Source: Pseudomonadales bacterium (GTDB lineage: Bacteria > Pseudomonadota > Gammaproteobacteria > Pseudomonadales > Azotimanducaceae). From it: a DNA stretch of 64,000 bases. Both the position numbers and the translations under genes were made by a program. The stretch lies in the NCBI GenBank assembly GCA_022448085.1, contig JAKUTH010000007.1:1-64000 (forward strand), in the 5' to 3' direction. Shown here piece after piece: positions 14,188-26,865 of this stretch. Below the pieces are notes generated by a model. That model was not told where the DNA came from. It searched no databases and saw only the letters and a list, made by a program, of their open reading frames with translations. Position 1 is the stretch's first letter; each line of letters opens with the position of its first letter.

Positions 14188-15049
14188 GCCGACTTGCGAA
14201 TACGAGCATAAAGACCGTCGCCATTCCGAGCGCCATCATGCCCGCAACTCCAACCCATGGAGGGCCCATCGTGTAATCCGTCGGCCATAGAAGATCTGTA
14301 CCGATGCGCCAAGGCCAGAGCACCATGAGGGATCCGGCCATTAGGCCCGTAAGGAAACCCAATATTACGTCGCGGTAATGGCGAAAGAGGTACCGAATAA
14401 ACCGTGCGAACACGACCAGGCCCACGACCAAACCCAGTCCAAAGGTCAGTAGCGGGATCAAATCCAGCGACGTAAGAGCCTCCAGCATTGGACCGTAAAG
14501 GCCCAAGATTACCAGCACGAGGCTCCCGGAAATCCCGGGTAGCATCCATGCGGTCACCGCGAGTATGCCGCCGACGAACACTAGCGGCAGCCAGAGTTCA
14601 GTCGTCTGTGCTGGAAGAAACGCAAATGTCCCACCGAGAAAAAGCCCAGAAATCCCAGCCACCGCGAGAATTCGCAGCTTTACTCTGGACCCAATTTGAA
14701 TGACGGCTGCAGCCACAAGCCCGAAGAAGAACCCCCACACGTATAGCGGTGCTGTGTCGAGAAGGAACCGAATCACATTAGCGAGTACCAGTTGACTAAG
14801 CATCATGCCCACTAATAAAACACACAAAAACCCGATGTCGTGATGCGCAGAAAACACACGCCAACCCTTGCGAAAAAGCATCGTTGCAGACGCTGCTGAA
14901 AAGGACGCCAGCGCCTTGATCATCCGGTCATAAATTCCAGTGATGAGGGCAATCGTGCTCCCAGAAATCCCCGGAACAATTTCCGCAATACCCATCGCCA
15001 CGCCGCGCGCCAATATGCCTAGCATTTCAACATCGTGTAGCTTCTTCAC
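14177..15049 (-). CDS. DUF368 / PopT-family undecaprenyl-phosphate translocase
   Basis: 290 residues with about eight to nine membrane segments. Two inverted-repeat halves each carry the signature PGISGS (EIVPGISGST near residue 24 and WMLPGISGSLV near 170). DUF368 proteins of the PopT type are known to return undecaprenyl phosphate across the cytoplasmic membrane for reuse in cell-wall and O-antigen synthesis. It overlaps pcm upstream by 4 nt and nlpD downstream by 11 nt, so all three are likely translated from one mRNA. Family identity is firm; the transport role is transferred from characterised homologues. Confidence 0.88.
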   Translation of the reverse strand: MKKLHDVEMLGILARGVAMGIAEIVPGISGSTIALITGIYDRMIKALASFSAASATMLFRKGWRVFSAHHDIGFLCVLLVGMMLSQLVLANVIRFLLDTAPLYVWGFFFGLVAAAVIQIGSRVKLRILAVAGISGLFLGGTFAFLPAQTTELWLPLVFVGGILAVTAWMLPGISGSLVLVILGLYGPMLEALTSLDLIPLLTFGLGLVVGLVVFARFIRYLFRHYRDVILGFLTGLMAGSLMVLWPWRIGTDLLWPTDYTMGPPWVGVAGMMALGMATVFMLVFASRRVD

Positions 15050-15678
15050 CGAACAGTGCCGCCCACCAGCGGAACAAACCGAACGTAGTCAACCGTGTCC
15101 TGCTGCCACGCATCCCCCATTCGATCGATCACTTTCAGCTCTTGCACATCGCCATCGCCGACGGGTATGACCATTCGCCCCTGCTCCACAAGTTGGTCGA
15201 GCAACGCTTCGGGTAACCCGCGTGACGCCGCAGTCACAAGAATCGCATCGAAAGGTCCTTCATCAGACCAACCCGAATTGCCATCGTCATGTTTTTGGCG
15301 GACGTTCGTAACATTCAGCAAACGGAATGTTTCCCTGGCCCGATCAGCTAGTCCACTGATCCGTTCAACGGTGTAAACCGTTTTCACGAGTTCGGAAAGA
15401 ATCGCTGTTTGATAGCCAGATCCAGTGCCAATTTCAAGTACGCGACTGGGATTGGACTCCAGGAGTAGCTGTGTCATTAGGCCCACCACCAGTGGCTGAG
15501 AAATCGTCTGATTAAATCCAATCGGAAGCGCAGAGTCCTCGTAAGCTCTATGCGCGAGCGCTTCATCAACAAATACGTGCCGAGGAATACTATCCATCGC
15601 GGCTAGTACACGGGTATTTGAGACACCATTTTTCTCCAGACGGTCGACGAACCGGCGCCGGGTCCGCTCCGACGTCAT
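15046..15678 (-). CDS. pcm: Protein-L-isoaspartate O-methyltransferase
   Basis: 210 residues from the ATG at 15678 (MTSERTRRRFVDRL), which matches the family start and has AAGGA upstream; a longer frame from 15708 overlaps the truD remnant. The SAM-binding motif LEIGTGSGYQTA (about residue 83) and the substrate region FNQTISQPLVV are clear. It methylates damaged isoaspartyl residues to start their repair. In relatives surE lies directly upstream; here the truD remnant abuts pcm instead. Confidence 0.95.
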   Translation of the reverse strand: MTSERTRRRFVDRLEKNGVSNTRVLAAMDSIPRHVFVDEALAHRAYEDSALPIGFNQTISQPLVVGLMTQLLLESNPSRVLEIGTGSGYQTAILSELVKTVYTVERISGLADRARETFRLLNVTNVRQKHDDGNSGWSDEGPFDAILVTAASRGLPEALLDQLVEQGRMVIPVGDGDVQELKVIDRMGDAWQQDTVDYVRFVPLVGGTVR

Positions 15679-15697
15679 CCCTATTCCTTGTAAGTTT

Positions 15698-16102
15698 TTA
15701 GCGCCCACTCGCTATCACCTCAAGGTCGAGCGTTTCCCCATGAACGGCAGTCGCGTATGCGCCCTTGGGTAGAAAAAAACGTAAACCCAATCGATTTCCG
15801 TTCAACCGAAAAGTCAGATTGGATGGCTGCACTGTCAATGCTCTTCGATCCTGTTTCAAGCCACCCCACTCAAGCGCATCGCGTATACAATCTTCGTTTG
15901 CGATCGCTGCTATCTCGAGATCCCGAATCGCACCCGTCGTCGGCAGTGACCTCCGACCCCGCTTTTCAATTTCAAGAAAGACATGGCCTCCCTCGCCTGT
16001 CGGCGCGAAAACCAACTGTTCGAATACCCTAAAATCGTCCAGTCGCTCGCGAATCCTTCCGTGACCCGCCGCGACGGTCGCACAGGGCCAACGCGCAGGA
16101 CC
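15698..16102 (-). pseudogene. truD: truD remnant: N- and C-terminal ends joined, catalytic centre deleted
   Basis: In one frame the sequence first gives GPARWP...GRIRERLDDFRV, then FAPTGEGGHVFLEIEKRGR, matching the first 55 or so residues of tRNA pseudouridine synthase D. It then continues directly into DALEWGGLKQDRRAL, RLGLRFFLPKGAYATAV and the stop, matching the last 75 or so residues. Roughly 200 central residues are missing, including the catalytic Asp motif (G-x-KD-x-x-A) and the TRUD insertion domain. The only in-frame start in the preserved frame is TTG at 16015, inside the conserved N-terminus. It lies immediately after ftsB, where ispD, ispF and truD normally stand. Non-function as a pseudouridine synthase is near certain; expression as a short peptide is possible. 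Confidence 0.8.
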
Positions 16103-16125
16103 CTCGAAGAGGTTCGCTCGACCAC

Positions 16126-16410
16126 CTACCTGCCGCTTGCCGGCTCTAAAACAAGATAGAACGTCTCCCCTTTCGCGACCATCCCTAGATCCGAGCGGGC
16201 ATGCGCTTCCACAGCCTCTAAACCGTCCCGAAACCCATCAACTTCTGTGCGAAGGATACGATTCCGCTCGCGAAGACGATGATTAAGTTGCGCTTGTTGT
16301 TCAACCTGATCGGCAAGTATCTGCACTTCAAAGTACCCGCTCTTCCCGAACCAATAGTTGTATTGGAGGGCTAAAAATAGAACGGCGCTGATAATCGCAA
16401 AGAAACGCAT
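16126..16410 (-). CDS. ftsB: Cell division protein FtsB
   Basis: 94 residues. One N-terminal transmembrane helix (about 4-20) is followed by a periplasmic coiled coil (about 25-65) and a C-terminal segment EAHARSDLGMVAKGETFYLV, which is conserved in FtsB. It bridges FtsL and FtsQ in the divisome. It starts directly after the eno stop codon, the standard eno-ftsB arrangement. Normally ispD follows; here the truD remnant follows within about 25 nt. Confidence 0.94.
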   Translation of the reverse strand: MRFFAIISAVLFLALQYNYWFGKSGYFEVQILADQVEQQAQLNHRLRERNRILRTEVDGFRDGLEAVEAHARSDLGMVAKGETFYLVLEPASGR

Positions 16411-17703
16411 CTACGTTTCCATACCTTGGAATTCAGCCAGGCCCAGATAGCGACTGTCATGGAGGGACGACTCGATACGTAACAAGCGGTTATATTTCGC
16501 CACGCGTTCGGACCGAGATAAAGATCCCGTTTTGATTTGCCCTGCCCCAGTTGCAACCGCCAAGTCCGCGATGAATGTATCCTCGGTATCGCCTGAACGA
16601 TGAGAAACGATCACCGAATATCCGCTGTCATGCGCCATACGGATCGCTGCGAGCGTCTCTGTAAGCGTGCCGATTTGATTCAATTTAATGAGGATCGCGT
16701 TGGCAATTCCTTCTCTGATACCACGTGCTAAGATTTCGGTGTTGGTGACAAAAAGGTCGTCGCCAACTAACTGAATCCGATTTCCAAGAGAATCTGTTAG
16801 AAGGCGCCAACCGTGCCAATCATTTTCGTCCATACCGTCTTCAATAGAAGCAATCGGAAATTGATTGGTAAGTTCTTCGAGGTACCTACAGAAATTCTTG
16901 CTGGTAAATATACGATCGTCGCCCGCCAGGTGATAAGCCCCATCGTGAAAGAATTCACTCGCGGCGCAATCGACTGCCAGCAACACGTCCTTTCCCACCT
17001 GGTACCCCGAGCGTGTGATTGCCTTCTCGATCAATTCGAACCCCGCAATATTTGACTCCAAATCAGGCGCGAACCCGCCCTCGTCTCCAACGCTCGTAGC
17101 AAGCCCTTTTTCGGCAAGTAGTATTTTCAATGCATTAAATATTTCGACTCCTGCACAAAGCGCGTCGCGAAACGTTGTCATCGATACCGGTTGGATCATG
17201 AACTCTTGTATATCAACGTTGTTATCTGCGTGAGCCCCTCCGTTGAGAATGTTCATCATCGGTACCGGCATACGCACGTCCGCGGGGCCATACAATTCCG
17301 TAAGATATTGATGCAATTCAAGATTGCGGGAACAAGCCGCTGCTCGAGCGGCAGCGAGAGACACTCCAAGAATCGCATTCGCTCCAAGCCGCTCTTTATT
17401 CTTGGTTCCGTCGAGCTCGATCATTACGCCATCAATCCGTGTCTGATCATTCACGTCGAGGTCTAGGAGCGCTGTTGAAATTTCCCCTTCAATCCGTTCG
17501 ATAGCTCGAAGTACGCCCCTACCCCCCAATCGGTCTGCATCACCGTCGCGCAACTCAAGTGCCTCACGGGATCCTGTCGAGGCCCCCGAAGGTACCATTG
17601 AGTAGCCAGAATCACCGCTGTCGAGTATCACGTCGACTGCGACCGTAGGGCTACCCCGTGAATCAAATACCTCCCAAGCGCGGATCGCACTGATCCGGCT
17701 CAT
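16411..17703 (-). CDS. eno: Enolase
   Basis: 430 residues from the ATG at 17703 ([21 protein letters not shown]); a longer frame upstream lies inside kdsA. Conserved pieces include [16 protein letters not shown], the metal-binding region of [14 protein letters not shown], and the C-terminal [18 protein letters not shown] and [15 protein letters not shown]. It interconverts 2-phosphoglycerate and phosphoenolpyruvate and scaffolds the RNA degradosome in many gammaproteobacteria. Its start overlaps the kdsA stop (ATGA). Confidence 0.98.
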
Positions 17704-18536
17704 GAAATCTGCTGTTCTATGTACCCACGCGACTTGATAACCGCGTCTATTTCTCGAAGTTCTTCGAGCAATGGCTTCATGAGGTCTAACGGCCACGAGT
17801 TAGGGCCGTCTGAGAGGGCCTCATCCGGTCGAGGATGCGTCTCCATGAACAACCCTGCAACCCCGGCTCCTATTGCAGCACGGGCTAATACAGGAACCAT
17901 TTCTCGTTGACCGCCCGACTTGTCGCCGAGACCACCGGGCATCTGAGCCGAATGCGTGGCATCGTAAACGACGGGACAACCGGTTTGTCTCATCAGGGCG
18001 AGCGAACGCATATCGGATACCAGATTGTTATACCCAAAACTCGCACCGCGTTCGCACACCATCACCTGCTCGTTGCCTCCCGCTTTTGCTTTGTTGACCA
18101 CGTTGCACATATCGAGTGGCGCTAAGAACTGTCCCTTCTTGATATTCACCGGCAAACCCTGGGCACACACACTTTGTATGAAGTTAGTTTGCCTGCAGAG
18201 AAATGCCGGTGTCTGAAGAACAGAAACGACGCTGGCGACTTCGTCGAGAGGCGTATCCTCATGTACATCCGTGAGTACCGGAACCTCAATTTCATCCCGC
18301 ACCCGTTGAAGAATACGCAGTCCTTCTTCGAGGCCCGGGCCCCGATAACTTTCATGGGAGGAACGATTGGCTTTATCGAACGAGCTTTTATAGATGAAAT
18401 GTACCCCGAGCGAACTCGCGATCTCCCGAAGTTGCTCGGACGTTTCTAGAGCAGACGCTTCATTTTCGATGACACATGGGCCAGCGATCAGGAAGAAAGG
18501 ATCGTTATTGCCCACATCAAATGAACAAAGTTCCAT
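17700..18536 (-). CDS. kdsA: 3-deoxy-8-phosphooctulonate synthase
   Basis: 278 residues. The motifs [42 protein letters not shown] and [16 protein letters not shown] identify KdsA. It condenses arabinose-5-phosphate with phosphoenolpyruvate to make Kdo-8-phosphate for the lipopolysaccharide inner core. It lies between pyrG and eno as in Pseudomonas. Its presence implies that the organism makes Kdo-containing LPS, which bears on the missing lpxA. Confidence 0.97.
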
Positions 18537-21599: not shown

Positions 21600-24500
21600 T
21601 TAAGTGGAATAACGAAAGTGGACAGCAGATACACCGAATTCCTCCCGCAAAGAAGTGAGCAGTTGATCAGATGGTTGAACCCGCCAGTCTTCTCCAAGTA
21701 CTACGCGTCCGGTCGCTTCTTCATTCCGATACGCAATCGTGACCTCACAACCTTGCGACGAATCAATCTGTGCACGGTAAACTTCGAGTTTCTCGCGCAG
21801 TCGACCGGGGAAATCGCCGCCCATCTCTTGCTCGCATGTCGAGATTTCAATTCGACCACGGAACCGTCGCCGGGCCTCCTCCACCGTGTAAACGGCTACG
21901 GCACGGATCTTTAAATCACCAGAATACTCGTCCGGTTGGACGGTTCCTTCGACGATAAGAACCGCGTCCTTCGTTAGCTTTTGATGGTGTTCGGCATACG
22001 TGTCGCCAAACACGCTTACTTCGACACGACCGCTTTGATCATCGAGAACCACGAAGGCCATACCTTCGCCACGCTTACTGCGCCTCGATCGATTCGAAAC
22101 GACCAGTCCAGTAATAGTTCGAGTACCCTGTCCCGCTTGCAAATGAGCAATTTTTGTAGGGCAAAACGTGCGAATTTCATCGATGTAATCATCTATTGGA
22201 TGCCCAGTCAGATAGAGTCCCAGCGTCTCTTTTTCACCTTCAAGTCTTGTCTTTGTTTCCATCGCCCGAACACGCCGCGACGTTATGTCTGCAGCAGGGG
22301 CTTCTATACCGCCAAACATGTCGTGTATTCCAAGGGAACGGTCCCTAGCGCTTTGTTCCGCCCCTTGTATCGACTCATGAATCCCAGTCAAAAGTTCAGC
22401 CCGAATTTGATCCAGCCCAGAATCTAACGAGGCGAGGCTATCCATGGAGCCAGACCGAACTAGCGCCTCGATGACTTTCTTATTGGCTCGACGTACGTCA
22501 ACACGATTGCAAAAGTCTTGTAAGTCGACAAAGTTGCCCCGTTTTCGTTCGCTGGTGATGGCCGCGACTGGACCCTCCCCTATACCCCTTACCGCGCCCA
22601 GTCCGTACACGATCGACCCTTCGACGGCTCTAAACTTGAACTCGCTTTGATTCACGTCCGGCGGGTTGACGGGAATTCCCATTCGTGATGCCTCGTCAAC
22701 GAGCGTTACCACCTTATCGATATTCTGCATATCTGCTGACAAAACGGCGGCCATGAACTCTGCGGGATAGTGAGTTTTGAGCCACGCGGTTTGAAATGAA
22801 AGCATGGCGTAGGCAGCTGAGTGGGCTTTGTTGAATGCATAACCTGCAAACTTCTCCATTTGATCAAAAATGTTATTTGCCAAAGTTTCATCCACTGCGT
22901 TCGCCGCAGTGCCTTCCAAGAAAGTAGCCCGCATTTTCGCCATTTCTTCAGGGATCTTTTTACCCATTGCTTTGCGCAGCAGATCAGCCTGACCCAGGCT
23001 AAAGCCGGCCAGTTCTTGTGAAACGTTCATAACGTCTTCCTGATAAAGCATGACGCCATAGGTGGTACTCAAAACTGATTCCAACCGTGCGTGAGGATAG
23101 GTAACAGGGGCATTACCGTGTTTTCGAGAAATGTAGTCATCGACGGCTCCGGACTGCAACGGCCCCGGACGGAACAACGCCACGAGCGCGATCACGTCAT
23201 TGATGTTGTCCGGTAACAGCCGACGAATCAGATCCTTCATCCCCTCCGACTCAAGTTGGAATATCGCCGTCGTTTCCGCCGATCGCAAGAACTCAAAGGT
23301 GGGTTCGTCGTCTAGCGGAATCGTTCGAATATCGATGGGTTCGTCACCACACCGCCGCCGAGAGTGATTAATATCCGTTACCGCCCAATCGATTATCGTC
23401 AACGTTTTAAGTCCTAGAAAATCGAACTTGACCAAGCCTGCTTCTTCAACATCGTCTTTATCGAACTGGGAGACCGTCGCCGCTCCCATCGTTTCTGTGT
23501 AGAGTGGAACGTAGGATTCAAGGGCTGAAGGTGCAATTACGACACCCCCAGCGTGTCTGCCCACGTTACGTACGAGACCTTCTAACCGGTACGCCATGTC
23601 CATGATTTCAGCCACGTCATCGCTTTCGTCGATGAATTCACGAAGCTCCTCTTCCTGGGCCACTGCCTTATCAAGCGTCATGCCCACTTCAAATGGGATC
23701 ATTTTGGACAGTCGATCGGCAAGTCCGTAGGGCTTTCCTTGTACCCTGGCAACATCCCTGACCACAGCTTTAGCAGCCATGGTGCCAAACGTAGCTATTT
23801 GACTAACGGCCTCAGCCCCGTACAACTCAGCAACGTGATTGATAACTTCGTCGCGTCGCACCATACAAAAATCAATGTCGAGATCCGGCATCGAAACACG
23901 TTCTGGATTCAACAATCGTTCAAACAGAAGATCGTATTGCAAAGGATCAATGTCAGTGATGCCCAGGCAGAACGACACCAACGATGCCGCACCCGAACCG
24001 CGACCTGGACCCACAGGAATTTTACGTTGTTTCGCCCAGTTGACGAACTCCATTACGATCAAGAAATAGCCCGCGAAACCCATTTCGTTGATAACGCCGA
24101 GTTCGTAATCTAAGCGATCGATATATTTGGCGCGATCCACCTCGTCCGATCCCGAACTCGCGTGCCGAAAATAATCTTCAAGCGCCTCGTGAGCTGTAGA
24201 AGTCAGGAGTTCTTCACGCGTTGTGTCCTCGGGTACCGGATAAATCGGCAAGTGATAGGTATCGAGATCGACGAGCAAATTACAACGGCGACTTATTTCA
24301 TACGAGTTTTCTAGTGCTTCAGGAATATCGGCAAACAGCGCGGCCATCTCGTGGCCGGAGCGGAGGTATTGTTGATCGGAAAAACGTCGTTCGCGACGAG
24401 GATCATTGAGCGTTCGGCCTTCTTGTATACATACCCGAGCCTCGTGAGCTTCGAAATCTTGAGCATCTAGAAAGCGGACGTTATTAGTCGCCACCAAGGG

Positions 24501-25058
24501 AATCCCCATAGATTCCGCTAACGCAACCGCGGCGCCAATGTACTCGTCTTCGTCGGAGTGCCCGGTTCGAGACAACTCGATGTAATAACGGTTCGTGAAG
24601 ACATTCCTCCATTGCTCTGCCCGTTCGATCGCCTCGGACATTTCACTATTTATCAGCGCCATGCCTACGTCGCCGCGATGCCCGCCCGATAGGAGAATCA
24701 GGCCCTCATTCAACTCTTCGAGCCACTCCTTTTGAAACGTCCCTCGATCCTGAGACCGAATGTAGGAACGAGATGCGAGCTTGAGCAGATTGTGGTAACC
24801 CCTTTGATTAGTAGCTAAGACGATTAGCCGGTACGACCTCGCTTCCTCACGCACCTCCAATTCCAGCCCCACGATGGGTTTGACGCCCTCGGCCCTACAT
24901 GCCTTATAGAACTTCAACATGCCAAAAAGATTGCCGAGATCAGTGACCGCCACCGCCGGAAAGCCCATTTCCCTGGCTCGTTCTGCGAGAGCTTCAACGC
25001 GAACAAGCCCGTCGGTTATCGAGAATTCGGTGTGCAACGAGAGGTGAACAAATGCCAT
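21600..25058 (-). CDS. dnaE: DNA polymerase III subunit alpha
   Basis: 1152 residues from ATG at 25058; a GTG one codon upstream overlaps the rnhB stop. The order is PHP domain (FVHLSLHTEFSITDG onward), polymerase domain with the catalytic PDLDIDFC (about 398) and GRGSGAASLV, then helix-hairpin-helix, then the OB fold (ITGLVVSNRSRRSKRGEGMAFV, about 985) and C-terminal tau-binding domain. The internal clamp-binding region reads IHDMFGG. It is the replicative polymerase. It is normally followed by accA; here tilS follows directly. Confidence 0.97.
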   Translation of the reverse strand: MAFVHLSLHTEFSITDGLVRVEALAERAREMGFPAVAVTDLGNLFGMLKFYKACRAEGVKPIVGLELEVREEARSYRLIVLATNQRGYHNLLKLASRSYIRSQDRGTFQKEWLEELNEGLILLSGGHRGDVGMALINSEMSEAIERAEQWRNVFTNRYYIELSRTGHSDEDEYIGAAVALAESMGIPLVATNNVRFLDAQDFEAHEARVCIQEGRTLNDPRRERRFSDQQYLRSGHEMAALFADIPEALENSYEISRRCNLLVDLDTYHLPIYPVPEDTTREELLTSTAHEALEDYFRHASSGSDEVDRAKYIDRLDYELGVINEMGFAGYFLIVMEFVNWAKQRKIPVGPGRGSGAASLVSFCLGITDIDPLQYDLLFERLLNPERVSMPDLDIDFCMVRRDEVINHVAELYGAEAVSQIATFGTMAAKAVVRDVARVQGKPYGLADRLSKMIPFEVGMTLDKAVAQEEELREFIDESDDVAEIMDMAYRLEGLVRNVGRHAGGVVIAPSALESYVPLYTETMGAATVSQFDKDDVEEAGLVKFDFLGLKTLTIIDWAVTDINHSRRRCGDEPIDIRTIPLDDEPTFEFLRSAETTAIFQLESEGMKDLIRRLLPDNINDVIALVALFRPGPLQSGAVDDYISRKHGNAPVTYPHARLESVLSTTYGVMLYQEDVMNVSQELAGFSLGQADLLRKAMGKKIPEEMAKMRATFLEGTAANAVDETLANNIFDQMEKFAGYAFNKAHSAAYAMLSFQTAWLKTHYPAEFMAAVLSADMQNIDKVVTLVDEASRMGIPVNPPDVNQSEFKFRAVEGSIVYGLGAVRGIGEGPVAAITSERKRGNFVDLQDFCNRVDVRRANKKVIEALVRSGSMDSLASLDSGLDQIRAELLTGIHESIQGAEQSARDRSLGIHDMFGGIEAPAADITSRRVRAMETKTRLEGEKETLGLYLTGHPIDDYIDEIRTFCPTKIAHLQAGQGTRTITGLVVSNRSRRSKRGEGMAFVVLDDQSGRVEVSVFGDTYAEHHQKLTKDAVLIVEGTVQPDEYSGDLKIRAVAVYTVEEARRRFRGRIEISTCEQEMGGDFPGRLREKLEVYRAQIDSSQGCEVTIAYRNEEATGRVVLGEDWRVQPSDQLLTSLREEFGVSAVHFRYST

Positions 25059-25060
25059 CA

Positions 25061-25690
25061 CTAAGATCGCTTACGGGATGTTTCGTCATTCATCAATAGA
25101 TTCCGGACAGGCGCAAAAGTTTTTCGGTGAATTGTGCTCGGGCCGTGCAGTTTCAGAGCGAACAAGTGCTCGCGCGTTCCGTATCCTTTATGCCGATCGA
25201 AACCGTATTCCGGATAATCCTTAGACGCAGATACCATTACGTTGTCACGGAAGACTTTGGCTAGGATTGATGCAGCACTAATCGCTGCCACCTTGGTATC
25301 CCCCCGCACGATAGTGTTTGTCGGGCAGGCGAGGCCTGGATCCACGTTTCCGTCGACCAAGGCCATGTCTATCGATATACCTAGGTTGGATACGGCACGG
25401 CGCATCGCTAACAACGTGGCTTGCAATATATTTAATCGGTCGATTTCTTCAACATTGGCGCAGCCCAACGCCCAGCCGATCGACCGTGCCTGGATTTCGT
25501 CTTTGAGGGCTAGTCGAACTTTGTGTTTAAGTGCTTTCGAATCGTCAAGCCCATTAATGGGTTTGTCGGGGTCCAAAACAACTGCCGCCGCCACCACGGG
25601 TCCGGCCAGCGGACCTCGACCTGCCTCATCAATCCCAGCTGTTTTGCTTAGGAGTGGATAGGAACCACTCCACTCTGCTTGTGTATTCAT
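25061..25690 (-). CDS. rnhB: Ribonuclease HII
   Basis: 209 residues from the ATG at 25690, which overlaps the lpxB stop as ATGA; a longer frame to 25747 lies inside lpxB. The motif [19 protein letters not shown] carries the catalytic Asp-Glu, and further acidic residues are in LDDSK and ALVDGN. It cleaves RNA in RNA-DNA hybrids, including single misincorporated ribonucleotides. Sits in the conserved lpxB-rnhB-dnaE order. Confidence 0.96.
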
Positions 25691-26865
25691 ATTTGATCGG
25701 AAACTAATGACATAACAACATCCGCAGCACGCTCGGACGCTCCACATCTCAGTTTGCCATGGATCTCCTTAAAGGCATGTCTAAGACCTTCGTCGTTCTC
25801 AAATCGTTTGATCTCTTCCGCTAGAGCGTTCGCTAGACGATCGGGAGTCGCGTCGTTTTGAAGCAACTCGGGCACTATGCTGTAACCAGCCAAAATATTA
25901 GGGAGTGCAACGAATTCCGATCGAATCAATCTTTTAGCGATCCAATAACTGAACCCTCCCAAACGATAGCTCACTACCATAGGTCGACCTAAAAGCAGTG
26001 CTTCTAATGTGCTTGTTCCGGCCTTAGTTAGAACAACGTCGGACGCGGCGATAGCGCGCTCGGAATTGCCTTCGATTAACCGCACGTCGACCTGCGTCTT
26101 TTTTGCAACAATTTCTGTCAAAAGAGCTTGTATTTTTGCACTAACACAAGGGATAACCAGGACGGCTGAAGGATAGTGCCGACCCTCAGGGTTGATTCTA
26201 GCCACAGCCCGCTCGGCTGCGTCGATGAACAAGTCGCCGAGAAATCGGACTTCGGAAAGACGACTGCCAGGCAACAGCCCCACTACGAGGGCATCAGCTG
26301 GTAGCCCCAGATCGGCGCGCGCGCGCGCGCTTCTTTCGCCCGGTTCTATATTCGGATCTATGTCGTCCGCAAGCGGATGTCCAACAAATTCTGCTCGAAC
26401 GCCGGAATCGCGATACAAGGGCGGCTCGAAAGGAAATAGTGCCATCACCACATCAGTGGAGCGGCCGATCTTACGAATCCTACCCCGTCTCCATGCATAT
26501 ACTGCGGGGCTGACATAGTGGGCCGTCGGTACGCCCCGACGCTTTAGCAGCCGTTCGAGCAACAGGTTAAACACGTTGAAATCAATTCCCACAACCACAT
26601 CGGCTTCCCTAAAACATCGATACAAGCAGCGGATGATCCGCACTAACGTGGGTAACCTCTTAAGCGGATCTATAAATCCATTAACGGACAGCTCCTCGAT
26701 ATTTGCGAGCGATTCGAGACCTTGCTTAACCATTTGATCCCCACCCACGCCTATAAATCGAAGGCTCGTGGCTCGCCTAGCCAACGCGCGCATGAGTCCC
26801 GATCCTAGAATATCCCCGGATTCTTCACCGGCGACGATGCCAATCGTCAAGGTTGGTTTAGCCAT
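25687..26865 (-). CDS. lpxB: Lipid-A-disaccharide synthase
   Basis: 392 residues. The N-terminal [17 protein letters not shown], central [18 protein letters not shown] and [14 protein letters not shown], and C-terminal [21 protein letters not shown] are diagnostic for this GT19 family. It joins two UDP-diacylglucosamine derivatives at the inner membrane to give the lipid A disaccharide. Overlaps rnhB by 4 nt. Upstream the usual partner lpxA is missing, and a 110-nt spacer separates it from fabZ. A run of eight GC dinucleotides lies inside the gene. Confidence 0.97.
26315..26330. repeat. (GC)8 dinucleotide repeat inside lpxB
   Basis: Sixteen bases of uninterrupted alternating GC encode Ala-Arg-Ala-Arg-Ala in the LpxB segment [10 protein letters not shown] gain or loss of one unit would shift the reading frame. 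Alternating GC can also adopt Z-DNA. Confidence 0.9.

Follow-up and report, generated by a model that had tools for sequence, protein, structure and literature searches.

Remains of a very probably decaying truD pseudogene, and a second deletion allele, in one genus of the Azotimanducaceae

The window analysed here is a 64,000-nucleotide stretch of contig JAKUTH010000007.1 from a Pseudomonadales bacterium of the family Azotimanducaceae. In the genus set of seven genomes compared below (G000 to G006) this genome is G000, and the locus lies on its contig C105. Between an ftsB-like and a pcm-like gene, on the minus strand, sits a remnant of truD, the gene for tRNA-Glu pseudouridine-13 synthase. 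Its open reading frames and coordinates delimit the pseudogene at 15698..16125, from an old GTG start (16125-16123) to a TAA codon ending at 15698; a sequence-only reading of the same DNA gave 15698-16102, a slightly narrower span. The upstream ftsB-like gene (16126..16410, minus strand), whose name we assume from operon order, is intact, with a 94-aa ORF in five genomes and a dN/dS of 0.22 between G000 and G004. The downstream pcm-like gene (15046..15708, minus strand) is intact as well; its 220-aa ORF occurs in all seven genus genomes, cut by a contig end in two, and dN/dS is 0.18 for the same pair. The true pcm start is likely the ATG at 15678, behind GGAATAGGG. Another pcm-like frame, with 48% identity to the copy next to truD, was seen at G000:C91:10801-11367 (L045) and also on contig C26 of G004.

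In some family members (L004, L008 and L009, read by eye, with motifs that we take to be those of ispD and ispF) these two isoprenoid genes lie between ftsB and truD; they are absent here (window positions 15046-18536). Profile matches to IspF, IspH and the C-terminal domain of HMG-CoA synthase were found in none of the seven genus genomes, and IspH matched in 3/9 other family members and 7/7 others of the order. IspD gave weak matches only, in six of the seven genus genomes and mostly in frames of 463-483 residues, which perhaps represent GlmU.

The identity of the remnant rests on both of its ends. PF01142 (TruD) matches at G000:C105:15827-16063 (model positions 15-89) and 15737-15850 (model positions 373-410), both on the minus strand, with a combined score of 45.2 bits at a cut-off of 27; these are the only parts of the 412-position model that are covered, and the match is thus not full-length. 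Both pieces lie within one stop-free open frame of 179 residues. Against E. coli TruD (1sb7), the phmmer alignment of the remnant is confined to chain residues 35-74 and 293-357, with weak single stretches and a whole-sequence E of 4.8e-7. Alignment to the nearest full-length homologue, that of G002, divides the remnant into a 5' piece still in the TruD frame (15961..16114, minus strand, from NLFEG to EK), which overlaps the first profile match, and a 3' piece (15698..15960, minus strand) with the second match, which holds the C-terminus and its LPKGAYATAV motif. At the junction between them (15960..15961, minus strand) 546 bp are gone relative to G002, a multiple of three corresponding to 182 codons. 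The GxKDK motif, which presumably holds the catalytic Asp80 of TruD, is present in G002 and G003, and its region falls into the deleted part. Because the G002 protein aligns to E. coli TruD through the GxKDK region (PDB search) and the remnant only at the two segments named above, the predicted catalytic core of TruD is gone from the remnant. The profile matches at both ends, the single open frame and the alignments to G002 and 1sb7 therefore bear out the earlier claim of two truD ends joined in frame by a deletion. Its estimate of about 200 missing central residues, including the catalytic Asp, comes close to the 182 codons measured, and its description of an in-frame junction, an intact LPKGAYATAV and a TTG (at 16015) as the only in-frame start holds in every point.

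A second lesion lies near the start of the reading frame. A few codons behind the GTG, at 16113..16115 (minus strand) in the alignment, our genome and G004 share a 1-bp deletion that is absent from G005 and G002; in G001 the stretch itself is deleted. A product begun at the GTG consequently runs outside the TruD frame and reaches a stop codon after 71 codons in our genome and after 38 in G004, and for this reason only an internal TTG is left in frame. The GTG of G005 has kept its frame up to the contig end. The remnant thus carries two disabling mutations, the 546-bp deletion and the 1-bp frameshift, and it shares homology and position with the long truD of relatives, both of which are features of a pseudogene.

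These relatives are G002, with a frame of 325 residues, and G003, with 330 residues in a record that contains some ambiguous bases; in both, a long truD occupies this position. G004 and G005, two other species assembled separately, have the same junction as our genome, and the flanking blocks measured differ by 2.6-7.3% among the three. The scar is therefore older than the split of these species, and the sequence-only suggestion of a recent deletion has to be given up. The G005 contig stops just past the junction and another begins inside pcm, leaving the 3' part of its truD unseen. The contig of G006 ends inside pcm and gives no information on the locus, and the rest of that genome yielded no remnant.

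G001 lacks this junction and has a different allele with larger deletions, in which the start and the N-terminus of truD are missing. It retains a central 59-bp stretch from the span deleted in the other three, identical to G002 at 49 of the 59 positions (the best of 500 shuffled copies reached 30), and the C-terminus of truD follows 406 bp further along in G002 coordinates. Neither deletion allele is derivable from the other. A tree of 12,633 flanking columns unites G001, G000 and G004 to the exclusion of G005 (support 0.98). Single-block trees disagree, and the adjacent pcm weakly puts G001 outside (0.84, 573 columns). The presence of two alleles in this clade reflects either recombination of the locus, or segregating alleles, or a common ancestor whose truD was already dead, though still long. 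Elsewhere in the window, at 22000-26000, G001 and G004 differ by 0.68-1.28%, against about 4-6% in the majority of the other blocks, which points to recent interspecies recombination.

Selection on the remnant was assessed by pairwise Nei-Gojobori dN/dS with bootstrap 95% intervals and a codon-permutation p, with the flanking genes pooled for comparison. For G000-G004 the ratio was 1.58 (138 codons, 0.78-4.33) against 0.20 in the flanks, for G000-G005 1.13 (61 codons, 0.48-3.95) against 0.14, and for G004-G005 1.30 (62 codons, 0.60-4.31) against 0.15. The pairs with G001 gave 1.40 for G000 (60 codons of the C-terminal piece, 0.53-10.15; flanks 0.11) and 2.46 for G004 (60 codons, 0.94-20.68; flanks 0.13). 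G005-G001 was left out, as the two have no overlapping part of truD. Permutation p for remnant versus flanks ranged from 0.002 to 0.009, the five pairs not being independent of each other, and all five remnant intervals include 1. The remnant dN of 0.127 between G000 and G004 is close to the flank dS of 0.092. There is no sign of purifying selection on the remnant, with intervals wide enough (lower ends 0.48-0.94) for weak constraint to be possible. Against G002 the remnant has a dN/dS of 0.17-0.32 in all four pairs, as expected if most of the divergence from G002 dates from the time when the gene was alive.

The remnant is thus very probably a decaying truD pseudogene and a case of ordinary gene loss. 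A deletion of some 546 bp that kept the frame would have taken out the catalytic core in an ancestor common to three or more species of the genus; next, the loss of 1 bp just past the start codon would have put the start out of frame in our genome and G004, and the leftover sequence would now be drifting at about the neutral rate. On this account truD would be dispensable in the lineage and lost repeatedly, the sister species G001 having presumably lost it by different deletions, and we infer that pseudouridine 13 is absent from tRNA-Glu. In a variant of this explanation the common ancestor of G000, G001, G004 and G005 already had an inactive, still long truD, and both deletion alleles arose later. 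Two mutually exclusive deletion alleles in one tight clade would fit this order of events, as would the C-terminal dN/dS of 1.40 (60 codons, 0.53-10.15) for G000 and G001, whose alleles differ. However, none of the inactivating changes can be identified as predating the deletions, and independent losses combined with recombination fit equally well, given that the average tree and pcm place G001 and G005 differently. We regard the variant as a tentative possibility, with the odds somewhat against it.

Alternatively, the fused TruD ends might form a mini-protein that has been retained, with translation beginning at the TTG at 16015. In its favour, the deleted length is divisible by three, our genome and G004 have an open frame, and so does G005 up to the contig end. 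However, a simulated neutral copy shows no stop after 44 substitutions with a probability of about 0.29, and the open frame is therefore to be expected by chance and no sign of function. In addition, the remnant evolves at a dN/dS of 1.1-2.5 in five pairs versus 0.11-0.20 in the flanks, the old start is frameshifted in our genome and G004, and the N-terminal half is missing from G001. Retention of the mini-protein is thus very improbable, and the earlier proposal that the short peptide had been kept for another reason fails on the dN/dS contrast, the frameshift behind the start and the further loss in G001. Even less credit is due to the idea of a small new TTG-started protein that diverges under positive selection in the clade, to which the point estimates of dN/dS, all above 1, might seem to lend themselves. 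An artefact, in which assembly collapse produced the scar while the living population carries truD at full length, is the least credible explanation of all: the sequence-only reading had taken a full-length truD in relatives as a mark of such a collapse, and a long truD does occupy this place in G002 and G003 and the G005 assembly does break right after the junction, as may occur where strains differ, but the same junction in the separately assembled G004 and G005 and the lost purifying selection, which is not an outcome of a collapse, speak against it.

Our own assembly (2.66 Mb in 137 contigs, 94.6% complete) contains no PF01142 match other than the two remnant pieces. The second truD that the earlier reading had proposed to look for is thereby rejected for the assembly searched, though a copy might lie in the part that the assembly lacks. 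Across a wider sample, PF01142 matches occur in 50 of 58 relatives, our genome included, and in 113 of 142 family genomes with a completeness of at least 90%, counts that include the G000 and G004 remnants, thus overstate intact truD, and may contain absences due to assembly gaps. The family genomes with no match spread over several genera, and TruD is patchily lost in the family.

The substrate position appears unaltered in those sampled genomes that lack a TruD match. In a scan of 26 of 30 loci (L214-L217 were left out, and L209, L210 and L211 gave no tRNA-Glu), 23 tRNA-Glu genes were read by eye, none from the genus of the remnant: 11 genomes lacking a TruD match contributed 12 genes, and 10 genomes with a match contributed 11. 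All 23 have T at position 13. A compensating change of U13 where truD is absent was thus not seen in this sample, which the genus itself lies outside. With an E. coli query no full tRNA-Glu was found in the seven genus genomes, and none was found at the 26 tRNA matches of our own genome; the tRNA-Glu of the genus is probably unassembled, a divergent tRNA-Glu being the alternative. Isolated copies of the final 25 or so bases of a tRNA-Glu gene, with the rest of the tRNA missing, lie at G000:C4:81-105 (L210) and G002:C312:10712-10736 (L211), and resemble the ends that elements leave behind when they integrate at tRNA genes.

In Vibrio, according to PMC12588516, TruD is the enzyme behind the single pseudouridine 13 of tRNA-Glu, and deleting its gene raised stop-codon readthrough; of the mutants tested there, those with a growth defect in the absence of stress do not include the truD deletion. 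Among the literature matches listed, no title concerned a truD pseudogene. The locus described here offers a clean example of the loss of a tRNA-modification gene in uncultured gammaproteobacteria, with two deletion alleles within one genus, and adds to the evidence for a dispensable pseudouridine 13; existing views of how TruD or tRNA-Glu work are unchanged.

Compared with TruD as defined by PF01142 and the E. coli structures (1sb7, 1si7 and 1szw), the remnant has ends that are TruD by profile and phmmer and lies at the place of the long truD of G002 and G003; it differs in that the predicted catalytic core is deleted, the start is out of frame and purifying selection is lost. Absence of TruD as such is shared with Alphaproteobacteria and Mollicutes, which are reported without the enzyme in PMC10965804 and PMC4014445, respectively. 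The absences described in these two papers are old, whereas the genus studied here is midway through the loss, with a recognisable scar and two deletion alleles.
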